Below, piece by piece: positions 344-21,712 of a stretch of 31,653 bases of DNA. The position numbers and the translations under genes are program-made. Position 1 is the first letter of the stretch, and the number at the start of each line of letters is the position of its first letter. The notes under the pieces were generated by a model, which saw nothing but the letters and a program-made list of their open reading frames with translations, was not told the DNA's origin and searched no databases. The stretch lies in the IMG/VR virus record IMGVR_UViG_3300027977_000127, positions 1 to 31,653 of that record; one strand, 5' to 3'. Origin of the DNA: a virus.

Positions 344-2557
344 ATGGCCAATCAGGTCGCCAACAAACAGACCACCAACATCGTTCCGGTTCAGGGCGTT
401 TTTGATCCTGAACCAACGTTTGCGCTGCAATATTTTGTTGGCCCCGCGGGAACGCCTTTTTTTGCCCCAATTGACCCCGTTCAATCAGGGTTAACCATTA
501 CAAATTCGACGATTGATTCGTCCGTAATTGGTGGCAACACCCCCGCGGCAGCGTATTTCACAACCGCCCAGGTGGCCGCAGCGCCAACCGCGGACGCTGA
601 CGTGGCCAATAAGGCATACGTTGATTCGGTCGCCCAGGGTTTGGATATCAAGGCGTCGTGTTTGTACACGACCACCAACAACATTACGTTGACGGGCCTT
701 TCTACCCAGGCTGGTGGCGATTGGCCATCCGCGCTGACCGCCGGTGATCGCATCCTAGTCAAAAACCAAACCAGTCAGGCGCAAAACGGTATTTATGCAG
801 CCAGCGCCAGCGGATGGACGCGCACCGCGGACATGAACAACTGGTCGGAAGTGCCAGGCGCGTTTACGTTCATTGAAGCCGGAACATCATTGCTGAACAC
901 CGGTTGGGTTACGACCGCGGCATCGACCGGCACGATTGGCGTCACCGCGATGCCCTGGACGCAGTTTTCGGGCGCGGGAACGTACAGCGCGGGTACGGGT
1001 TTATCCCTAATCGGCACAACATTCAGTATTGCCAACACCGGTGTATCGGCTGCGTCGTATGGCGGCGCCAGCCAAACATTGACCGCAACCGTCAACGCCC
1101 AGGGCCAATTAACCGCCCTGGCCGCGACCAGCATTGCAGTTGCCGCCAATCAAATCACCAGCGGAACCATTGACACCGCCAGGATCAGCGGCGCTTACAC
1201 CGGCATTACGGGTGTTGGCACATTACTGGATTTAACCGTTACCAATACGATCACAGGATCAATCAACGGCAACGCGGCCACGGCAACAACCGCTGGAAGC
1301 GCCACAACAGCCACCACGGCGACAAATTTGGCTGGTGGTGGGGTTGGTTCAGTACCGTATCAATCGGGCGCTGGCGCCACTTCTTTTTTGGCTGCTGGGG
1401 CAAATGGCCAAGTGTTAACCTTGGCTGGCGGTGTTCCATCCTGGGCGACGCCTACGGTTGGCACGGTAACGTCGGTTGGTGGCACAGGTACGGTGTCCGG
1501 CATCACGCTGTCCGGCACGGTCACCAGCAGCGGCAATTTGACGCTGGGCGGCACGTTGGATTTGTCAGCGCCCCCCGCAATTGGCGGCACGACGGCCAAC
1601 ACAATCAAAGGCACAACCGTAACTGCCACGACCAAGTTTGTCGGCCCGTTTTTTGATGCGGCCACAAGTGCTGGCGGCGCTTTGCGAAACGCGGGTGGCA
1701 CGGCCCAACTGCAATGGGGCGCCGGTGGCGGCAATAATTTGTCTTTGGATGTTTCGACCAACATGAATGGTGCGAACGCGCAAATTGACATAAGCCCGAC
1801 CGGAACGGGTCACGTTCACATCAAGCCAACCGGCGCGGGATCAATTGAAATTGCGCCGACAAGCCTTGGCACGATCAACAATATGTCGATTGGCGCCACT
1901 ACGGCGGCATCGGCAAAATTCACAACCATTGATTTCAGCAGCACGTTGGCGGTGTCCGGTTCAACCGGTTCGGCTGGCCAGGTATTGCAGTCAAACGGCG
2001 CCAGCGCTCCAACTTGGGTGACGCCCGTGGCTTATGCGACGGTAACCGATGACACCACCACCAACGCGGTGCGTTATCCGCTGTTTGCCAGCCAAACAAC
2101 TGGCAACTTGGCCACCGAATACGTCGCTTCTACCAAATACCAATTCAACCCTTCGACCGGCATTTTGACGGCCACGGGCTTTGCTGGCGCTGGTACAGGG
2201 TTGACCGGCTTGCCCGCGGGCGAACTGACCGGCACGATCCCGTCATCCGTCCTGGGCAATTCGTCGCTGCACATCGGCACGACCACCATTGCGTTGAACC
2301 GCGCCAGCGCGATCCAGTCGTTGACTGGCGTTTCGATTGACGGCAGCGCGGGAAGTGCTGGCAGCGCAACAAACGCAACAAACGCAGCGAATATTGCAAT
2401 CACCGACGACACATCGACAAACGCGGACGAATACCTGGTTTGGGTGACAAATTCAACAGGAAACTTGCCCGCTTATGTGTCATCGACTAAACTTAAATTC
2501 AATCCATCCACAGGTATTTTTACCGCAACGGGTGGAACTGGCGGGGGCAACTTTTAA
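344..2557 (+). CDS. Tail fibre-like protein with beta repeats
   Basis: A 737-aa protein, very rich in Gly, Ala, Thr and Ser, typical of elongated trimeric phage fibres. Near residues 50-100 there is a TIDSSVIGGNTPAAAYFTT unit followed by ANKAYVDSVAQGLD, a segment widely seen in phage tail fibres. The middle has a Gly/Ala/Thr collagen-like stretch (NAATATTAGSATTATTAT). The C-terminal third holds two diverged copies of a unit that starts TDDT(T/S)TNA and ends KFNPSTGI(L/F)TATG. No catalytic motif or S74 chaperone is visible. Its stop overlaps the next start by one base (TAATG). Likely role: an adsorption fibre or a shaft to which other receptor-binding proteins attach. The family assignment is by composition and repeats, so the exact attachment site on the virion is unknown. 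Confidence 0.8.
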   Translation: MANQVANKQTTNIVPVQGVFDPEPTFALQYFVGPAGTPFFAPIDPVQSGLTITNSTIDSSVIGGNTPAAAYFTTAQVAAAPTADADVANKAYVDSVAQGLDIKASCLYTTTNNITLTGLSTQAGGDWPSALTAGDRILVKNQTSQAQNGIYAASASGWTRTADMNNWSEVPGAFTFIEAGTSLLNTGWVTTAASTGTIGVTAMPWTQFSGAGTYSAGTGLSLIGTTFSIANTGVSAASYGGASQTLTATVNAQGQLTALAATSIAVAANQITSGTIDTARISGAYTGITGVGTLLDLTVTNTITGSINGNAATATTAGSATTATTATNLAGGGVGSVPYQSGAGATSFLAAGANGQVLTLAGGVPSWATPTVGTVTSVGGTGTVSGITLSGTVTSSGNLTLGGTLDLSAPPAIGGTTANTIKGTTVTATTKFVGPFFDAATSAGGALRNAGGTAQLQWGAGGGNNLSLDVSTNMNGANAQIDISPTGTGHVHIKPTGAGSIEIAPTSLGTINNMSIGATTAASAKFTTIDFSSTLAVSGSTGSAGQVLQSNGASAPTWVTPVAYATVTDDTTTNAVRYPLFASQTTGNLATEYVASTKYQFNPSTGILTATGFAGAGTGLTGLPAGELTGTIPSSVLGNSSLHIGTTTIALNRASAIQSLTGVSIDGSAGSAGSATNATNAANIAITDDTSTNADEYLVWVTNSTGNLPAYVSSTKLKFNPSTGIFTATGGTGGGNF

Positions 2558-2877
2558 TGAATACGACCTGGAAAATCCTGGGCATCAAAGCGGATGGTGA
2601 CTTAATCACCCAGGCCAGGTATTTTGTTCGCGCTGAAAACAAAACCGCAGCCGTTGAAACGGAAGGCAATTGGTTTTTCCGCGAACCTAAAATGACCGTA
2701 CCGTTTGACCAGGTGACCGAAGCCATGATCGTGGAATGGATCAAAGCCGAAACCATGGCCGATGGCAAAAACATGATCGAAGCCCGCCTGGCTGAACAAA
2801 TGGTCAACGTGGTGGAACAAGAAGACCGCCCGCTGCCCTGGGCGCCCCAGGTGTTCACACCCAAATTTGAGGAATAA
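2557..2877 (+). CDS. Small conserved phage protein, DUF7936-like
   Basis: A 106-aa, mixed alpha/beta, acidic protein. It starts MNTTWKILGIKADGDLITQA, continues with alternating strands (ARYFVRAENKTAAVETEGNW), then a helical half (TEAMIVEWIKAE, MIEARLAEQM) and a Pro/Trp-rich end (PLPWAPQVF). This order matches small phage proteins of the DUF7936 type, usually encoded beside fibre genes. Their function is not established. The start overlaps the fibre stop by one base, so the two are probably translationally coupled. Sitting between two receptor-binding proteins it may be a fibre-assembly or virion accessory factor, which is inference from position only. The family name is from memory of the pattern and was not searched. 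Confidence 0.6.
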   Translation: MNTTWKILGIKADGDLITQARYFVRAENKTAAVETEGNWFFREPKMTVPFDQVTEAMIVEWIKAETMADGKNMIEARLAEQMVNVVEQEDRPLPWAPQVFTPKFEE

Positions 2878-2879
2878 AC

Positions 2880-4955
2880 ATGGCAGTCAACTTATCCCCC
2901 GTTTTCGGCGTCGCCGGACAAGTATTTAACGACAATGGCGATCCGCTGGCTGGCGGCAAGATTTACACCTACCTGGCCGGAACGACTACAAACGCTGCCA
3001 CCTACACCACCAACGCGGGAACAATTGCCCACAGCAACCCCATCATTTTGGATGGCGCGGGCCGTGTGCCGTCGGGTGAAATTTGGTTGACCGATGGCAT
3101 TTCATACAAGTTTGTTGTTGAGGATTCCGTTGGCGCGTTGATTGGAACTTACGACAATTTGGTGGGCATCAATTCCAATTTTGTAAATTACACAGCCCAA
3201 CAAGAAATTCAAACCGCAACGGCTGGTCAAACGGTGTTTAACCTGACCACCATGCAATATCAACCAGGCACAAACAGCCTGTCGGTGTTTGTGGATGGCG
3301 TGAACCAATATGGCCCTGGCGCTCAATACGCATACGTTGAAACTGACCAGGACACAGTAACTTTTGTGTCCGGCCTTCACGTTGGCGCGTCGGTGAAATT
3401 TACGACCACCGCAATCAATTCGGCTTCGTATGGCAACGCGTTTCAGATTTCCTACACCCCGCCATTTACAAACAGCGCGACAACCAACGTTGGCGCAAAA
3501 TTGGCCCAATATGTCAGCGTAAAAGATTTCGGTGCAGTTGGAACAGGTGGGGCAGACGACGCAACAGCAATTCAAGATGCAATTGATTCATTGACCAATG
3601 GCGGCGTAGTTTATTTTCCCGCGGGAACGTATTTGGTCAACAGTCAAATTGTTGTCAGCGCCAAAGTGCATTTGGTTGGTACAGGTTACGCAACTGAAAA
3701 TGGCACGAGTTCATCGTTGCGCGGCGCCACTTGCATTTTGCGCGGGTTTTCAAATTCGGATGCAACAGTCGCATTGAATGGCGATGGTTGTGGCATGGAT
3801 TTAATCGACGTTGATGGCGCATTGCAAGGAACTGGTGATGGCGTCCAGGTTTGGGGAAGCCGCGTAAGCATTGGTTCAATCAGCACCCGAAACCACGGCG
3901 GCGATGGTTTGCGAATTGGCAAAACCGAGGCGGGGCCATCAACTGTAAATTGCAACTTTTGGCGCGTTGAATATTTGATTACTTGCGGCAATACCAAAAA
4001 CGGTTTCCGCATTGACCAAACCAACACATCAACAACAACCAGTTATCCATTGGGCTTAAGTGATTGCAACGCTGGATATTGCGGATTGCTTGACGCCCGT
4101 TCAAATGGCGAAGACGGCTTGCAACTTGGCAACTGTAATGACAACGTGTTTGCCAACGTTGGTTCGCAAACCAACGCTGGCATTGGCATTCACTTTAAAA
4201 CGGATGGCACAAATTCCGGCCCGCGTTGCAACACAATTTTGAGTAATGATTCCGAAGCCAACGTTGGCAATGACATTCAAATTGATGCCGCAACGCTGCC
4301 TATTTCCGGCCCAGGTCTTTACAACAAAATCTATGGCAACCGTTCTGTTGCTGTCAATTCTCGAATTGTTGATAACAGCACAGGCAGTTTAATTTTGCAA
4401 TGGAACAACAATGTCGGTCAATACTCATTTAACAACCGAATTGCCGTAAGAAATTCATCTGCCGGTGGCGCCGCCGTGTACGATTTTTATGCCGATACAG
4501 GAGAAAACAACGTAGCGGGTATGCGCGGAATTCTTGATGGCGTATCTGGTGGGAAATGGGAGTTGTATACCAAGCGGGATGGCAACACTATTGCTTTGGC
4601 GCTTTCCGTTAACAACAAAGGCATTTTGGTTCAGCACCGAAATTACAACGCGCAAACCGTTCAGCCAAACGTACTTATTGATGTAGCGGCTGGAACATTT
4701 GTCAACATTGATGTGACAAGCACCAGCGCATTTCAAATCAACAGCCCGACCAATGACGGTGCAAACGGTCAGCAATTGACCATTTGCGTCAAGAACACAT
4801 CCGGCGGTGTTATGGGTACGATCACATGGGGTAGCGAATACAAACTCGCAGCATGGACAAACCCAGCAAACGGATTCAGCCGATCCATCAGTTTCTTCTA
4901 CGACGGAACAAACTGGATTGAAACATCGCGCACCGCGGCTGACATTCCAAACTAA
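2880..4955 (+). CDS. Tailspike with pectate-lyase-type beta-helix
   Basis: A 691-aa protein with the layout of a depolymerase tailspike. Residues 1-100 form a head-binding-like domain (GDPLAGGKIYTYLAGT, NPIILDGAGR, IWLTDGISYKFVV). Residues 105-180 look like a second beta domain (TVFNLTTMQYQPGTNSLSVFVDG). Residues 214-235 carry the entry motif of the Pectate_lyase_3 superfamily, VKDFGAVGTGGADDATAIQ, followed by a right-handed beta-helix region to about residue 500 and a C-terminal beta domain. It probably binds and may cleave a host surface polysaccharide. Catalytic residues cannot be assigned from sequence alone. An SD-like GAGGAA lies just upstream of the ATG. The beta-helix part looks somewhat more AT-rich than the virion genes downstream, as often seen in exchanged receptor-binding domains; I did not compute this. 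Confidence 0.88.
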   Translation: MAVNLSPVFGVAGQVFNDNGDPLAGGKIYTYLAGTTTNAATYTTNAGTIAHSNPIILDGAGRVPSGEIWLTDGISYKFVVEDSVGALIGTYDNLVGINSNFVNYTAQQEIQTATAGQTVFNLTTMQYQPGTNSLSVFVDGVNQYGPGAQYAYVETDQDTVTFVSGLHVGASVKFTTTAINSASYGNAFQISYTPPFTNSATTNVGAKLAQYVSVKDFGAVGTGGADDATAIQDAIDSLTNGGVVYFPAGTYLVNSQIVVSAKVHLVGTGYATENGTSSSLRGATCILRGFSNSDATVALNGDGCGMDLIDVDGALQGTGDGVQVWGSRVSIGSISTRNHGGDGLRIGKTEAGPSTVNCNFWRVEYLITCGNTKNGFRIDQTNTSTTTSYPLGLSDCNAGYCGLLDARSNGEDGLQLGNCNDNVFANVGSQTNAGIGIHFKTDGTNSGPRCNTILSNDSEANVGNDIQIDAATLPISGPGLYNKIYGNRSVAVNSRIVDNSTGSLILQWNNNVGQYSFNNRIAVRNSSAGGAAVYDFYADTGENNVAGMRGILDGVSGGKWELYTKRDGNTIALALSVNNKGILVQHRNYNAQTVQPNVLIDVAAGTFVNIDVTSTSAFQINSPTNDGANGQQLTICVKNTSGGVMGTITWGSEYKLAAWTNPANGFSRSISFFYDGTNWIETSRTAADIPN

Positions 4956-20035: not shown

Positions 20036-20587
20036 TTATGCTGCCAACCGGCCAACGGCGCCGTAACCGTAACCATCGTCACCTAGGAACCCGACACGGG
20101 CCAGGGTGGCGCTTTCGCTGGTGGCCACCAGGCTGATTTCGGAAACTTTGGCCATGATGCGACGGTTAACTTCGTAATCCAACCGGTCGGCAATGTAAGC
20201 GCCTGAATAAACGCTGCTGGTAATTGCTGGCATTGCATAACCGTAGTATTCGCAAGCGGCCTTCACATTGCTTTCCAAAAATCCAAGGCTGAAATCACGG
20301 TTTACAAAAATGAAATCAGCGCCAAACCGAACTTCGTTGCCGTCCAGGCTGCCGTAATTCAAGCCTTTGTAATCTGTCATGCCGTCAAAATAAGCGCCTT
20401 CAAACATACCGGCCACGGCTTTGACTTGTTCGTAAGTTGGGCCGTCGGTGTAGCGAATGTTAATGCTGGCGCCGCCTGAATAGACGCTAGAACGAACGCT
20501 AAATTTCACGCCTGGGAATGATTCTTTGAGAGCCGCACGAATCAATTTTGCGGTTTCAGAGCAAGAGAGGTATTCACGATTTGACAT
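20036..20587 (-). CDS. Stand-alone LPD29-type domain protein
   Basis: A 183-aa protein with SD AAAAAGGAAA. It carries what I recognise as the LPD29 domain (large polyvalent protein-associated domain 29) of mobile elements: YLSCSETAKLIRAALKESFP, GVKFSVRSSVYSGGASINIR, the AGMFEGAYFDGMTD segment and VRFGADFIFVNR. A second half (ACEYYGYAMPAITSSVYSGA, then a short Gly/Tyr-rich C-terminus) repeats the SSVYSGA phrase. LPD domains are usually found inside giant polyvalent proteins injected by phages or conjugative elements; here it is the first gene behind the strongest early promoter. The function is unknown; a host-takeover or anti-defence role is a guess from position. Confidence 0.75.
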   Translation of the reverse strand: MSNREYLSCSETAKLIRAALKESFPGVKFSVRSSVYSGGASINIRYTDGPTYEQVKAVAGMFEGAYFDGMTDYKGLNYGSLDGNEVRFGADFIFVNRDFSLGFLESNVKAACEYYGYAMPAITSSVYSGAYIADRLDYEVNRRIMAKVSEISLVATSESATLARVGFLGDDGYGYGAVGRLAA

Positions 20588-20733: not shown

Positions 20734-20892
20734 ATGGACACACAACAAGCAATCGAAAAAGCGGGCAGCGCGTTGGCCCTGGCCAAGTTGCTGGGGATCA
20801 CGCGACAGGCAATCAGTCAATGGGGCGACAAGGTTCCCCAGGCCAGGTTGTGGCAGTTGAAGGCGTTGAAGCCGTCCTGGTTTAGAAAATAA
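20734..20892 (+). CDS. cro: Cro-like repressor
   Basis: A 52-aa helix-turn-helix protein. The HTH is plain at residues 15-31 (LAKLLGITRQAISQWGD), followed by VPQARLWQLKALKPSWFRK, the usual ending of Cro/YdaS-type proteins. These bind short palindromic operators as dimers and turn down early transcription. It is the first plus-strand gene, divergent from the LPD29 operon, with a palindromic site between them. No SD precedes the ATG and the candidate promoter would start the message at the ATG, so it may be leaderless. No CI-type partner was found in the window. Too short for many gene callers, but the motif is convincing. Confidence 0.82.
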   Translation: MDTQQAIEKAGSALALAKLLGITRQAISQWGDKVPQARLWQLKALKPSWFRK

Positions 20893-20896
20893 GTTT

Positions 20897-20982
20897 TGGA
20901 ACCAGGATAGGGTGGAAGTCGCGAGCCACCCGAAAGGCGATCCCACCCCGCTTTCCTTGGTTCCATCCTTTTTGGGTGGGAT
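20897..20982 (+). ncRNA. Candidate structured RNA leader with pseudoknot
   Basis: The non-coding stretch between the Cro-like and DUF1376 genes can fold into a three-way junction. P1: 20897-20904 with 20958-20965 (8 perfect pairs, TGGAACCA/TGGTTCCA, plus G-U and G-C inside). P2: 20910-20915 with 20926-20931 (GGGTGG/CCACCC, 10-nt loop). P3: 20932-20939 with 20949-20955 (GAAAG-G-CG/CGCTTTC, one bulge). The whole 9-nt P3 loop ATCCCACCC (20940-20948) is exactly complementary to GGGTGGGAT at 20974-20982, one base before the likely SD of the DUF1376 gene. The second GGGTGG could also compete with P2. No known RNA class is recognised; cis-regulation of replication protein synthesis is inferred. Confidence 0.5.
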
Positions 20983-20995
20983 GAAAGGGTGCGTC

Positions 20996-21712
20996 ATGAA
21001 TTTTTACCAGTTTCACGTTGGCGACTACGCCAAACACACAGCCCATTTGACGGCAGAGGAAGACCTTGCCTATCGTCGGCTGCTGGATTTGTACTACGAC
21101 ACGGAATCACCAATACCCAACGATATCCCACGGGTTTCCCGTCGGATACGGGTGGGTTCCGAAGCGGTGTCAAATGTGTTGATCGAATTCTTTGAACTGA
21201 CCCCCGAAGGGTACAGAAACCGTCGTGCAGACGCGGAAATCGAAAAATACTACACGTTCCTGGCCAAGCAAAAAGCCAATGGAATCAAGGGCGGGCGCCC
21301 GAAAAAACCCATGGGTAACCCAGGGCTAACCCAAACCGAACCCAAAAAAACCCTAACCAATACCCAATACCCAATAACCAATAAAGAAAAAGAAAAAATA
21401 AAAAAAGAAAAATTGACCTGTCCTGATGGTGTTCAACAAGAAACCTGGGAATCGTTCCTACAAGCCCGAAAAGCCAACAAGGCGATAGTGACCCCCACCG
21501 TGGTCAAAAGAATCGCCCAGGAAGCCCAAAAAGCGGGTTGGTCGCTGGATAACGCGCTGTCGGAATGTGTCGCACGGGGCTGGCGCGGGTTTAAGGCTGA
21601 ATGGGTTGCTGACAAGCAAAACAAAAACGTTGGTGAACGCAACCGCGACACCATGGCGGGATTGACCCGCGGATTGATAGGGGGTGGCCACGATGTCAAA
21701 TTACTCAAGTGA
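20996..21712 (+). CDS. DUF1376 replication-initiation-type protein
   Basis: A 238-aa protein. The start at 20996 is set by the DUF1376 N-terminus: MNFYQFHVGDYAKHTAHLTA, EEDLAYRRLLDLYYDTESPI, then IPRVSRRIRVGSEAV, a winged-helix-like DNA-binding domain (YdaU type). Longer frames run through the folded leader and are unlikely. After residue ~100 comes a low-complexity Asn/Thr/Lys linker (about residues 105-145), then a C-terminal helical domain (TWESFLQARKANKAIVTPTV, GWSLDNALSECVARGWRGFK) like that of phage initiators and DnaT-like proteins. By analogy with lambda O it would bind origin repeats and recruit a helicase loader; the next gene looks like lambda P. SD AAAGGG is moderate and directly follows the pseudoknot strand. 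Confidence 0.8.
   Translation: MNFYQFHVGDYAKHTAHLTAEEDLAYRRLLDLYYDTESPIPNDIPRVSRRIRVGSEAVSNVLIEFFELTPEGYRNRRADAEIEKYYTFLAKQKANGIKGGRPKKPMGNPGLTQTEPKKTLTNTQYPITNKEKEKIKKEKLTCPDGVQQETWESFLQARKANKAIVTPTVVKRIAQEAQKAGWSLDNALSECVARGWRGFKAEWVADKQNKNVGERNRDTMAGLTRGLIGGGHDVKLLK
21316..21414. other. Candidate replication origin inside the DUF1376 gene
   Basis: Within the linker of the DUF1376 gene, (T/G/A)AACCC-type boxes start at 21316, 21327, 21338 and 21348 (10-11 bp apart). They are followed by four tandem 7-bp units, CCAATA(C/A), starting at 21357, 21364, 21371 and 21378, and then by about 30 bp of almost pure A with a few G and T (21385-21414). Iterons followed by an AT-rich unwinding tract inside the initiator gene is the arrangement of the lambda origin in gene O. 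Function is inferred. Confidence 0.5.

Follow-up and report, generated by a model that had tools for sequence, protein, structure and literature searches.

In the stretch of viral DNA analysed here (IMG/VR virus record IMGVR_UViG_3300027977_000127, positions 1 to 31,653, hereafter the window), two genes on the plus strand are separated by an intergenic gap of 103 bases. The upstream ORF encodes a P22 Cro/YdaS-like regulator (20734..20892; Pfam P22_Cro, E 3e-13), and the downstream gene encodes a DUF1376 protein (20996..21712; Pfam DUF1376, E 5e-24) with the conserved start M[NH][FY]YQ. Divergent from the Cro-like ORF, on the minus strand, lies a gene (20036-20587) whose product carries an LPD29 domain (large polyvalent protein associated).

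The gap can be read, on the plus strand, as three helices followed by two short sites. The outermost helix, P1, begins 4 nt after the end of the Cro-like stop codon: its 5' strand (GGAACCAGGA together with T20897; 20897..20907) pairs with its 3' strand (20954..20965) over 11 bp, with a single bulge at T20957. After the conserved junction J1/2 (UA, 20908..20909) comes hairpin P2 (20910..20931), in which GGGTGG at 20910-20915 pairs with CCACCC at 20926-20931 over 6 bp, leaving a loop of 10 nt. Junction J2/3 (20932..20936) is GAAAG in the window and GAAAA in most relatives. Hairpin P3 (20937..20951) closes with GCG/CGC and presents the anti-Shine-Dalgarno-like loop ATCCCACCC (20940-20948), and junction J3/1 (20952..20953), UU in the window and CU in most relatives, leads back to P1. 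A linker (20966..20973), predicted to be single-stranded from the position of the next site in relatives, separates P1 from site R1 (20974..20982), whose sequence GGGTGGGAT is the exact 9-nt complement of the P3 loop. Site R2 is the Shine-Dalgarno region GAAAGGGTG (20983..20991), just ahead of the DUF1376 gene, which is the presumed target. A sequence-only reading of this DNA had proposed the three helices and the 9-nt pairing; P1, P2 and the pairing are indeed present in the sequence.

Comparative support for the three-way junction

The same reading had judged this amount of complementarity to be far beyond chance, a judgement that the single sequence does not bear out. The minimum free energy of the leader has a z of only -1.8, and 11 of 200 shuffled sequences are equally or more stable. 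An exact helix of at least 9 bp occurs in 41 of 2000 dinucleotide shuffles. The nested minimum-free-energy structure is, moreover, a different fold from the three-way junction. Given that fold and that z, we set single-sequence folding aside as an arbiter.

We compared the region with its relatives instead, beginning with six DUF1376 relatives and extending to 80 in IMG/VR. A covariance model built from 23 sequences matches 57 of 82 loci, nearly all of them about 95 nt ahead of the DUF1376 start. Among 52 distinct relatives, 18 of the 19 pairs of P1-P3 show changes on both sides, and 95.2% of cells are paired. Fitting the alignment to the model biases it towards the structure; even so, slid controls reach just 38-53% paired, a very large difference, and none of 500 shuffle controls equals the observed pairing. 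P1 covaries, and the hairpins behave likewise when taken singly: P2 is paired in 98.9% of cells, with both-side changes in 6/6 pairs, and P3 in 98.7%, with both-side changes in 2/3 pairs. A further model, R3, built without the window and without loci L002, L004 and L015, recovers the window copy at 65 bits (E 2e-18). It is this comparative evidence, rather than the stability of one sequence, that leads us to accept the fold: judged across relatives, P1-P3 is real. P3 had originally been drawn as 7 bp with a bulge. Of that helix, the GCG/CGC part (20937-20939 with 20949-20951) is supported by the relatives, while its AAA/TTT extension is not; the extension overlaps the conserved junction letters GAAAA and CU, and it competes with P1.

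The sequence-only reading had also staked the element on the helices being conserved and covarying in relatives, and on the region being non-coding there. Alongside the covariation just described, the relatives indicate a non-coding region. A small ORF was considered, for the frame is open in the window from an in-frame GTG at 20912, and an ATG lies inside the P2 loop in L002, L003 and L006. However, the frame varies between relatives and L004 has no start, and the small-ORF reading was rejected. Within the same open frame, an ATG at 20981 (MKGCVMNFYQ...) precedes the conserved DUF1376 start; since the frame varies among relatives, this ATG is probably there by chance.

Membership of the int-alpA RNA family

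The element had been described as matching no recognised class. It does match one: int-alpA RNA (RF02996) of Rfam, at full length, and this is the sole sensible match in an Rfam scan of the region (E 0.0029). Compared directly with the window, RF02996 aligns over its positions 1-71 with 25.6 bits (E 9e-4), which is below the curated cut-off of 35.8 bits. Two orthologues exceed the cut-off, L005 with 44.3 bits and L006 with 38.0 bits. Covariance models of the two groups also find each other's members. (The labels R1 and R2 serve both for these models and for the sequence sites, which are distinct things; we always write 'model' for the former.) That is, model R1, of the window's clade, finds canonical int-alpA copies at the right places, and model R2, for which 25 canonical copies were used, places its matches correctly in ten DUF1376-type loci and finds an eleventh only weakly (E 0.15); model R2 does not reach the window copy itself. 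Because the orthologues pass and the models find each other's clades, we file the window RNA under int-alpA: by sequence comparison it is a divergent clade of that family, assigned through its orthologues, with the window copy itself below the cut-off. A search for DNA similarity to annotated phages and plasmids returned only matches to DUF1376 coding sequence and one distant canonical copy.

The window RNA shares with int-alpA the three-way junction of P1, P2 and P3 in the same order, with junctions UA, GAAAA and CU in the family against UA, GAAAG and UU in the window. It also shares a 3' tail that carries the R1 partner of the P3 loop (in the window, the 9-bp exact match) and a setting on mobile elements. 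Canonical members show both-side changes in 13/16 pairs. On the other hand, P2 is mostly longer in the window's clade, and the neighbours in the window are the Cro-like and DUF1376 genes rather than an integrase. A hairpin enclosing the Shine-Dalgarno sequence (hairpin P4), found in canonical members with z of 5.2 and 9.2, could not be detected in the window's clade (z -0.1).

An intrinsic terminator or attenuator, or a self-cleaving ribozyme, would be another way to read such a fold, and one to which we give practically no credence. There is a U-run after P1 in the window and its clade, and a three-way junction with GAAA is reminiscent of hammerheads. But most canonical members lack the U-run, and a terminator was rejected because the run is not conserved. 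The hammerhead was rejected because its core CUGANGA is absent before stem II, J1/2 consisting of UA alone in the window and in nearly all relatives; the Rfam scan of the region, moreover, returned no ribozyme family at E<=10.

The family is widespread. RF02996 is found above its cut-off in 80 of 399 sampled Burkholderiales genomes, and model R2 matches in 38 of 398 genomes of the phylum. Some genomes hold several copies: in Achromobacter insuavis (G004:C2), two copies of opposite orientation, L104 and L108, lie 3 kb apart, both above the Rfam cut-off, and at L251 (G425:C33, about 1150-3660) three same-strand copies fall within 2.5 kb, two of which look decayed in the part holding R1 and R2.

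The int-alpA RNA was reportedly first described in 2017. The Rfam model stops at R1, so that the Shine-Dalgarno partner R2 lies outside it. That stopping point makes it possible that the authors of the description already know part of this, chiefly the pseudoknot.

Two downstream partners of one loop

In the window, the CACCC of the P3 loop (20944-20948) is complementary not only to R1 but also to GGGTG at 20987-20991, within R2; pairing with R2 excludes pairing with R1. The sequence-only reading had pointed to a second GGGTGG and a second CCACCC that might exchange partners, and had merely hinted at pairing with the Shine-Dalgarno sequence itself. The repeat turns out to be partly meaningful, in that the GGGTG of the ribosome-binding site gives this loop a second partner; the second site as a family-wide feature is found here.

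We assessed the two complementarities by a swap test, in which each loop is matched to its own leader and to the leaders of other loci. The two-site search always returns some match, and the swapped controls underwent the identical search. Across 108 loci, the best match scores 15.8 with the loop's own leader versus 11.5 with swapped leaders, and the second-best 12.3 versus 9.2, giving z values of 19.5 and 19.1, which overstate independence because the sequences are related. For this reason we also considered dissimilar loops and held-out loci. Among 30 loops at least three edits apart, z remains 11.3 and 9.9, and none of 20000 permutations reaches the observed value. The excess also holds within groups, with z for sites 1 and 2, respectively, of 12.8 and 11.2 in the DUF1376 clade, 3.9 and 6.3 in Burkholderiales copies, and 11.5 and 11.1 in virus copies. 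The match between loop and R1 lies above all permutations.

The held-out set comprised 40 further matches and ten loci from the genome search with the canonical model; the parser read 31 of these 50, of which 27 were usable. A site 1 of at least 5 bp is present in 26/27 and a site 2 of at least 4 bp in every one (z 6.8 and 8.4); in all 27 loci the two draw on overlapping loop bases. For example, L208 contains TTGAAGG twice and L209 contains TGAAAGG twice, with a complementary loop in each. For loci that the parser missed and for extra copies, we took the reading from the covariance model instead; the effect persists (z 4.6 and 4.8), although a few copies look decayed. The proposal of a structured RNA upstream of DUF1376 whose loop forms a pseudoknot with the leader is thus confirmed by covariation and by the swap tests. 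What is new, on this comparison of sequences, is that the P3 loop has, throughout the family, two complementary sites downstream, R1 and R2.

Both sites keep characteristic positions. Measured from where the P1 3' strand begins, site 1 mostly starts at a distance of 14-18 nt; for site 2, the usual end point is 4-9 nt ahead of the start codon, the position of a Shine-Dalgarno sequence. At least three loop bases are common to both sites in 94 of the 96 two-site loci, and since the same bases are used, the two pairings would be mutually exclusive. Site 1 is the stronger in 64 of these 96 loci, and the two are tied in 14. As isolated duplexes, the window pairings have energies of -16.4 kcal/mol (loop-R1) and -7.7 kcal/mol (loop-R2). 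Extending the loop-R2 pairing into the 3' arm of P3 did not improve specificity, and the extension was dropped. In the closest relative, L002, the full 9-bp R1 pairing is not kept and a 5-bp GGGTG core remains.

It could be argued that the pseudoknot is constitutive, insulating the downstream gene or aiding ribosome loading without any switching, and that R2 resembles R1 simply because both are Shine-Dalgarno-like. The tight position between two ORFs, the usually greater strength of R1, and upstream and downstream genes that are unrelated from phage to phage would all suit such an element. Nonetheless, we regard it as improbable, for R2 tracks the loop specifically, both in swaps within clades and among the 30 dissimilar loops, and likeness to a Shine-Dalgarno sequence is by itself insufficient to account for this.

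Alternatively, an excisionase, a Cro-like protein or some similar regulator might bind the DNA at three repeated sites, namely R1, R2 and, inverted, the P3 loop. There are three short co-varying copies, and integrase or Cro-like genes adjoin them. G-U flanks are no commoner than expected; this fits DNA sites, but the test does not discriminate between them and RNA pairing. But P1-P3 co-vary as RNA helices, one copy always lies in an apical loop and another at the Shine-Dalgarno sequence, and we consider DNA sites a very improbable explanation.

Beyond these two sites, we find no excess of loop complements 60-600 nt upstream, and none inside the downstream gene, where one of three stretches reaches a z of 2.3 that we take as noise. 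The upstream result bears on the resemblance to C4 antisense RNA. The immunity RNA of phages P4 and P1 is a processed antisense RNA with upstream target copies, a1 and b1. As a positive control, the phage P4 immunity region matches the C4 family (RF01695) with 74.9 bits, and inspection by eye shows complementarity between its P3 loop AUCCUGUGAAG and UUCACAGGA, which lies at the Shine-Dalgarno sequence of the next ORF. C4 RNAs, including the CI RNA of phage P4, are thus similar to the window element in being compact, in having three helices, and in this complementarity. However, the junctions differ, the window family has no upstream a1/b1 targets and C4-type target copies were rejected for lack of upstream complementarity, the loop of the window family has two downstream partners, and RF01695 has no match in the window up to E 10. 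We conclude that the principle is like that of the C4 antisense RNA of P4 and P1, and that the window element belongs to a separate family. At phage P4 (L200, 8615-8692, minus strand), the C4 target region a1/b1 also matches isrK RNA (RF01394) with 60.8 bits, above its cut-off, so that the isrK and C4 families of Rfam overlap there.

The C4 precedent raises the further possibility that the P1-P3 body is excised as a small RNA and acts in trans on R1 and the Shine-Dalgarno sequences of related transcripts, perhaps in addition to acting in cis. Rfam, indeed, files int-alpA as 'Gene; sRNA', the P4 immunity region offers both the RF01695 match and the loop complementarity noted above, and the loops are highly variable on a constant body, as would be expected of diverging specificity groups. 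Yet the spacing between P1 and R1 is fixed, which an intramolecular pseudoknot requires but a target in trans does not; no upstream target copy exists, unlike in C4; and genome G471 has two copies with identical loops, so that copies are not always kept distinct. We therefore think that a trans-acting RNA, while a serious candidate, is unlikely.

A candidate translational switch between genes

The genomic setting also bears on the question. Of 108 loci, 100 have a same-strand ORF that ends near P1, usually 4-18 nt upstream, and because the upstream ORF ends so close, we take the element to be intercistronic rather than a free-standing gene with a promoter gap of its own. Among 64 upstream ORFs scanned in relatives, 27 are integrases, and Cro-like regulators and structural genes also occur; adjacency to an integrase, which the window replaces by its Cro-like ORF, is common and not constant. 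The genes found downstream vary greatly and include DUF1376, several HNH-type and AP2 proteins, and many of unknown function. Their diversity gives no hint of a ligand or signal, and we know of no ligand for the int-alpA element. At L009, L012, L024 and L105, a small gene of 75-77 aa stands between the RNA and DUF1376; there the RNA keeps its place next to the first gene and that gene's Shine-Dalgarno sequence. Downstream genes like HNH-type, NUMOD4 and AP2 endonucleases, some assigned by Pfam and others by eye, occur at L007, L148, L149, L153, L171, L193, L194 and L196. These neighbours suggest that the RNA travels with homing endonuclease genes.

We consider it probable, from the sequence comparisons, that 20897-20995 is an intercistronic, divergent int-alpA element that controls translation of the DUF1376 gene in cis through a loop with mutually exclusive partners R1 and R2. 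The proposal builds on what the comparison of loci supplies, namely the helices, both complementarities and their covariation with the loop, the fixed positions, the overlap on the loop, and the intercistronic setting. Control of replication-protein synthesis had been suggested at the outset; control of the DUF1376 gene, which occupies a replication-gene position, is the part of that suggestion that the comparison favours as the best reading.

In the switch we propose, the three-way junction of P1-P3 would present the anti-Shine-Dalgarno-like loop on P3. A pseudoknot between the loop and R1, just after P1, would occupy the loop and leave the ribosome-binding site open, while pairing between the loop and R2 would hide the ribosome-binding site and so repress translation. 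R1 would thus be a decoy, and the ON state the default, because R1 is usually the stronger partner, lies nearer, and is transcribed first. In the window, where the R2 pairing is only 5 bp and about 9 kcal/mol weaker than that with R1, the OFF state might therefore rarely form without help.

Several signals might shift the balance. Translation of the upstream gene is a natural candidate, since its stop codon is so close to P1 (usually 4-18 nt) that a ribosome terminating there would sit on the P1 5' strand. A ligand or protein could instead act by binding to the conserved junction, or the transcript could be cut within the linker that separates P1 from R1, releasing a trans-acting RNA with a free loop. 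Pseudoknots that sequester the Shine-Dalgarno sequence are known from the preQ1-II and SAM-II riboswitches. The element proposed here resembles such leaders in linking a pseudoknot to Shine-Dalgarno access, and differs from them in using, as its pseudoknot strand, a decoy next to the Shine-Dalgarno sequence, in being intercistronic, and in the diversity of the genes it would control.

int-alpA is a described but orphan family, and the co-varying triad of loop, decoy and Shine-Dalgarno sequence supplies it with a concrete, testable mechanism, one that argues for control in cis over a free-standing sRNA. In Proteobacteria, phages and integrative elements carry the same module ahead of replication genes, HNH endonucleases and many genes of unknown function. 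It is quite possible, though we hold this more tentatively than the reading of the window, that the int-alpA family as a whole is more than an sRNA gene, namely a portable translational switch of three strands (the loop, the decoy R1 and the Shine-Dalgarno site R2), placed by phages and integrative elements between unrelated genes. Such a switch would sense a common signal, which might be ribosomes ending upstream, a ligand or protein that binds the junction, or another copy of the RNA acting in trans.
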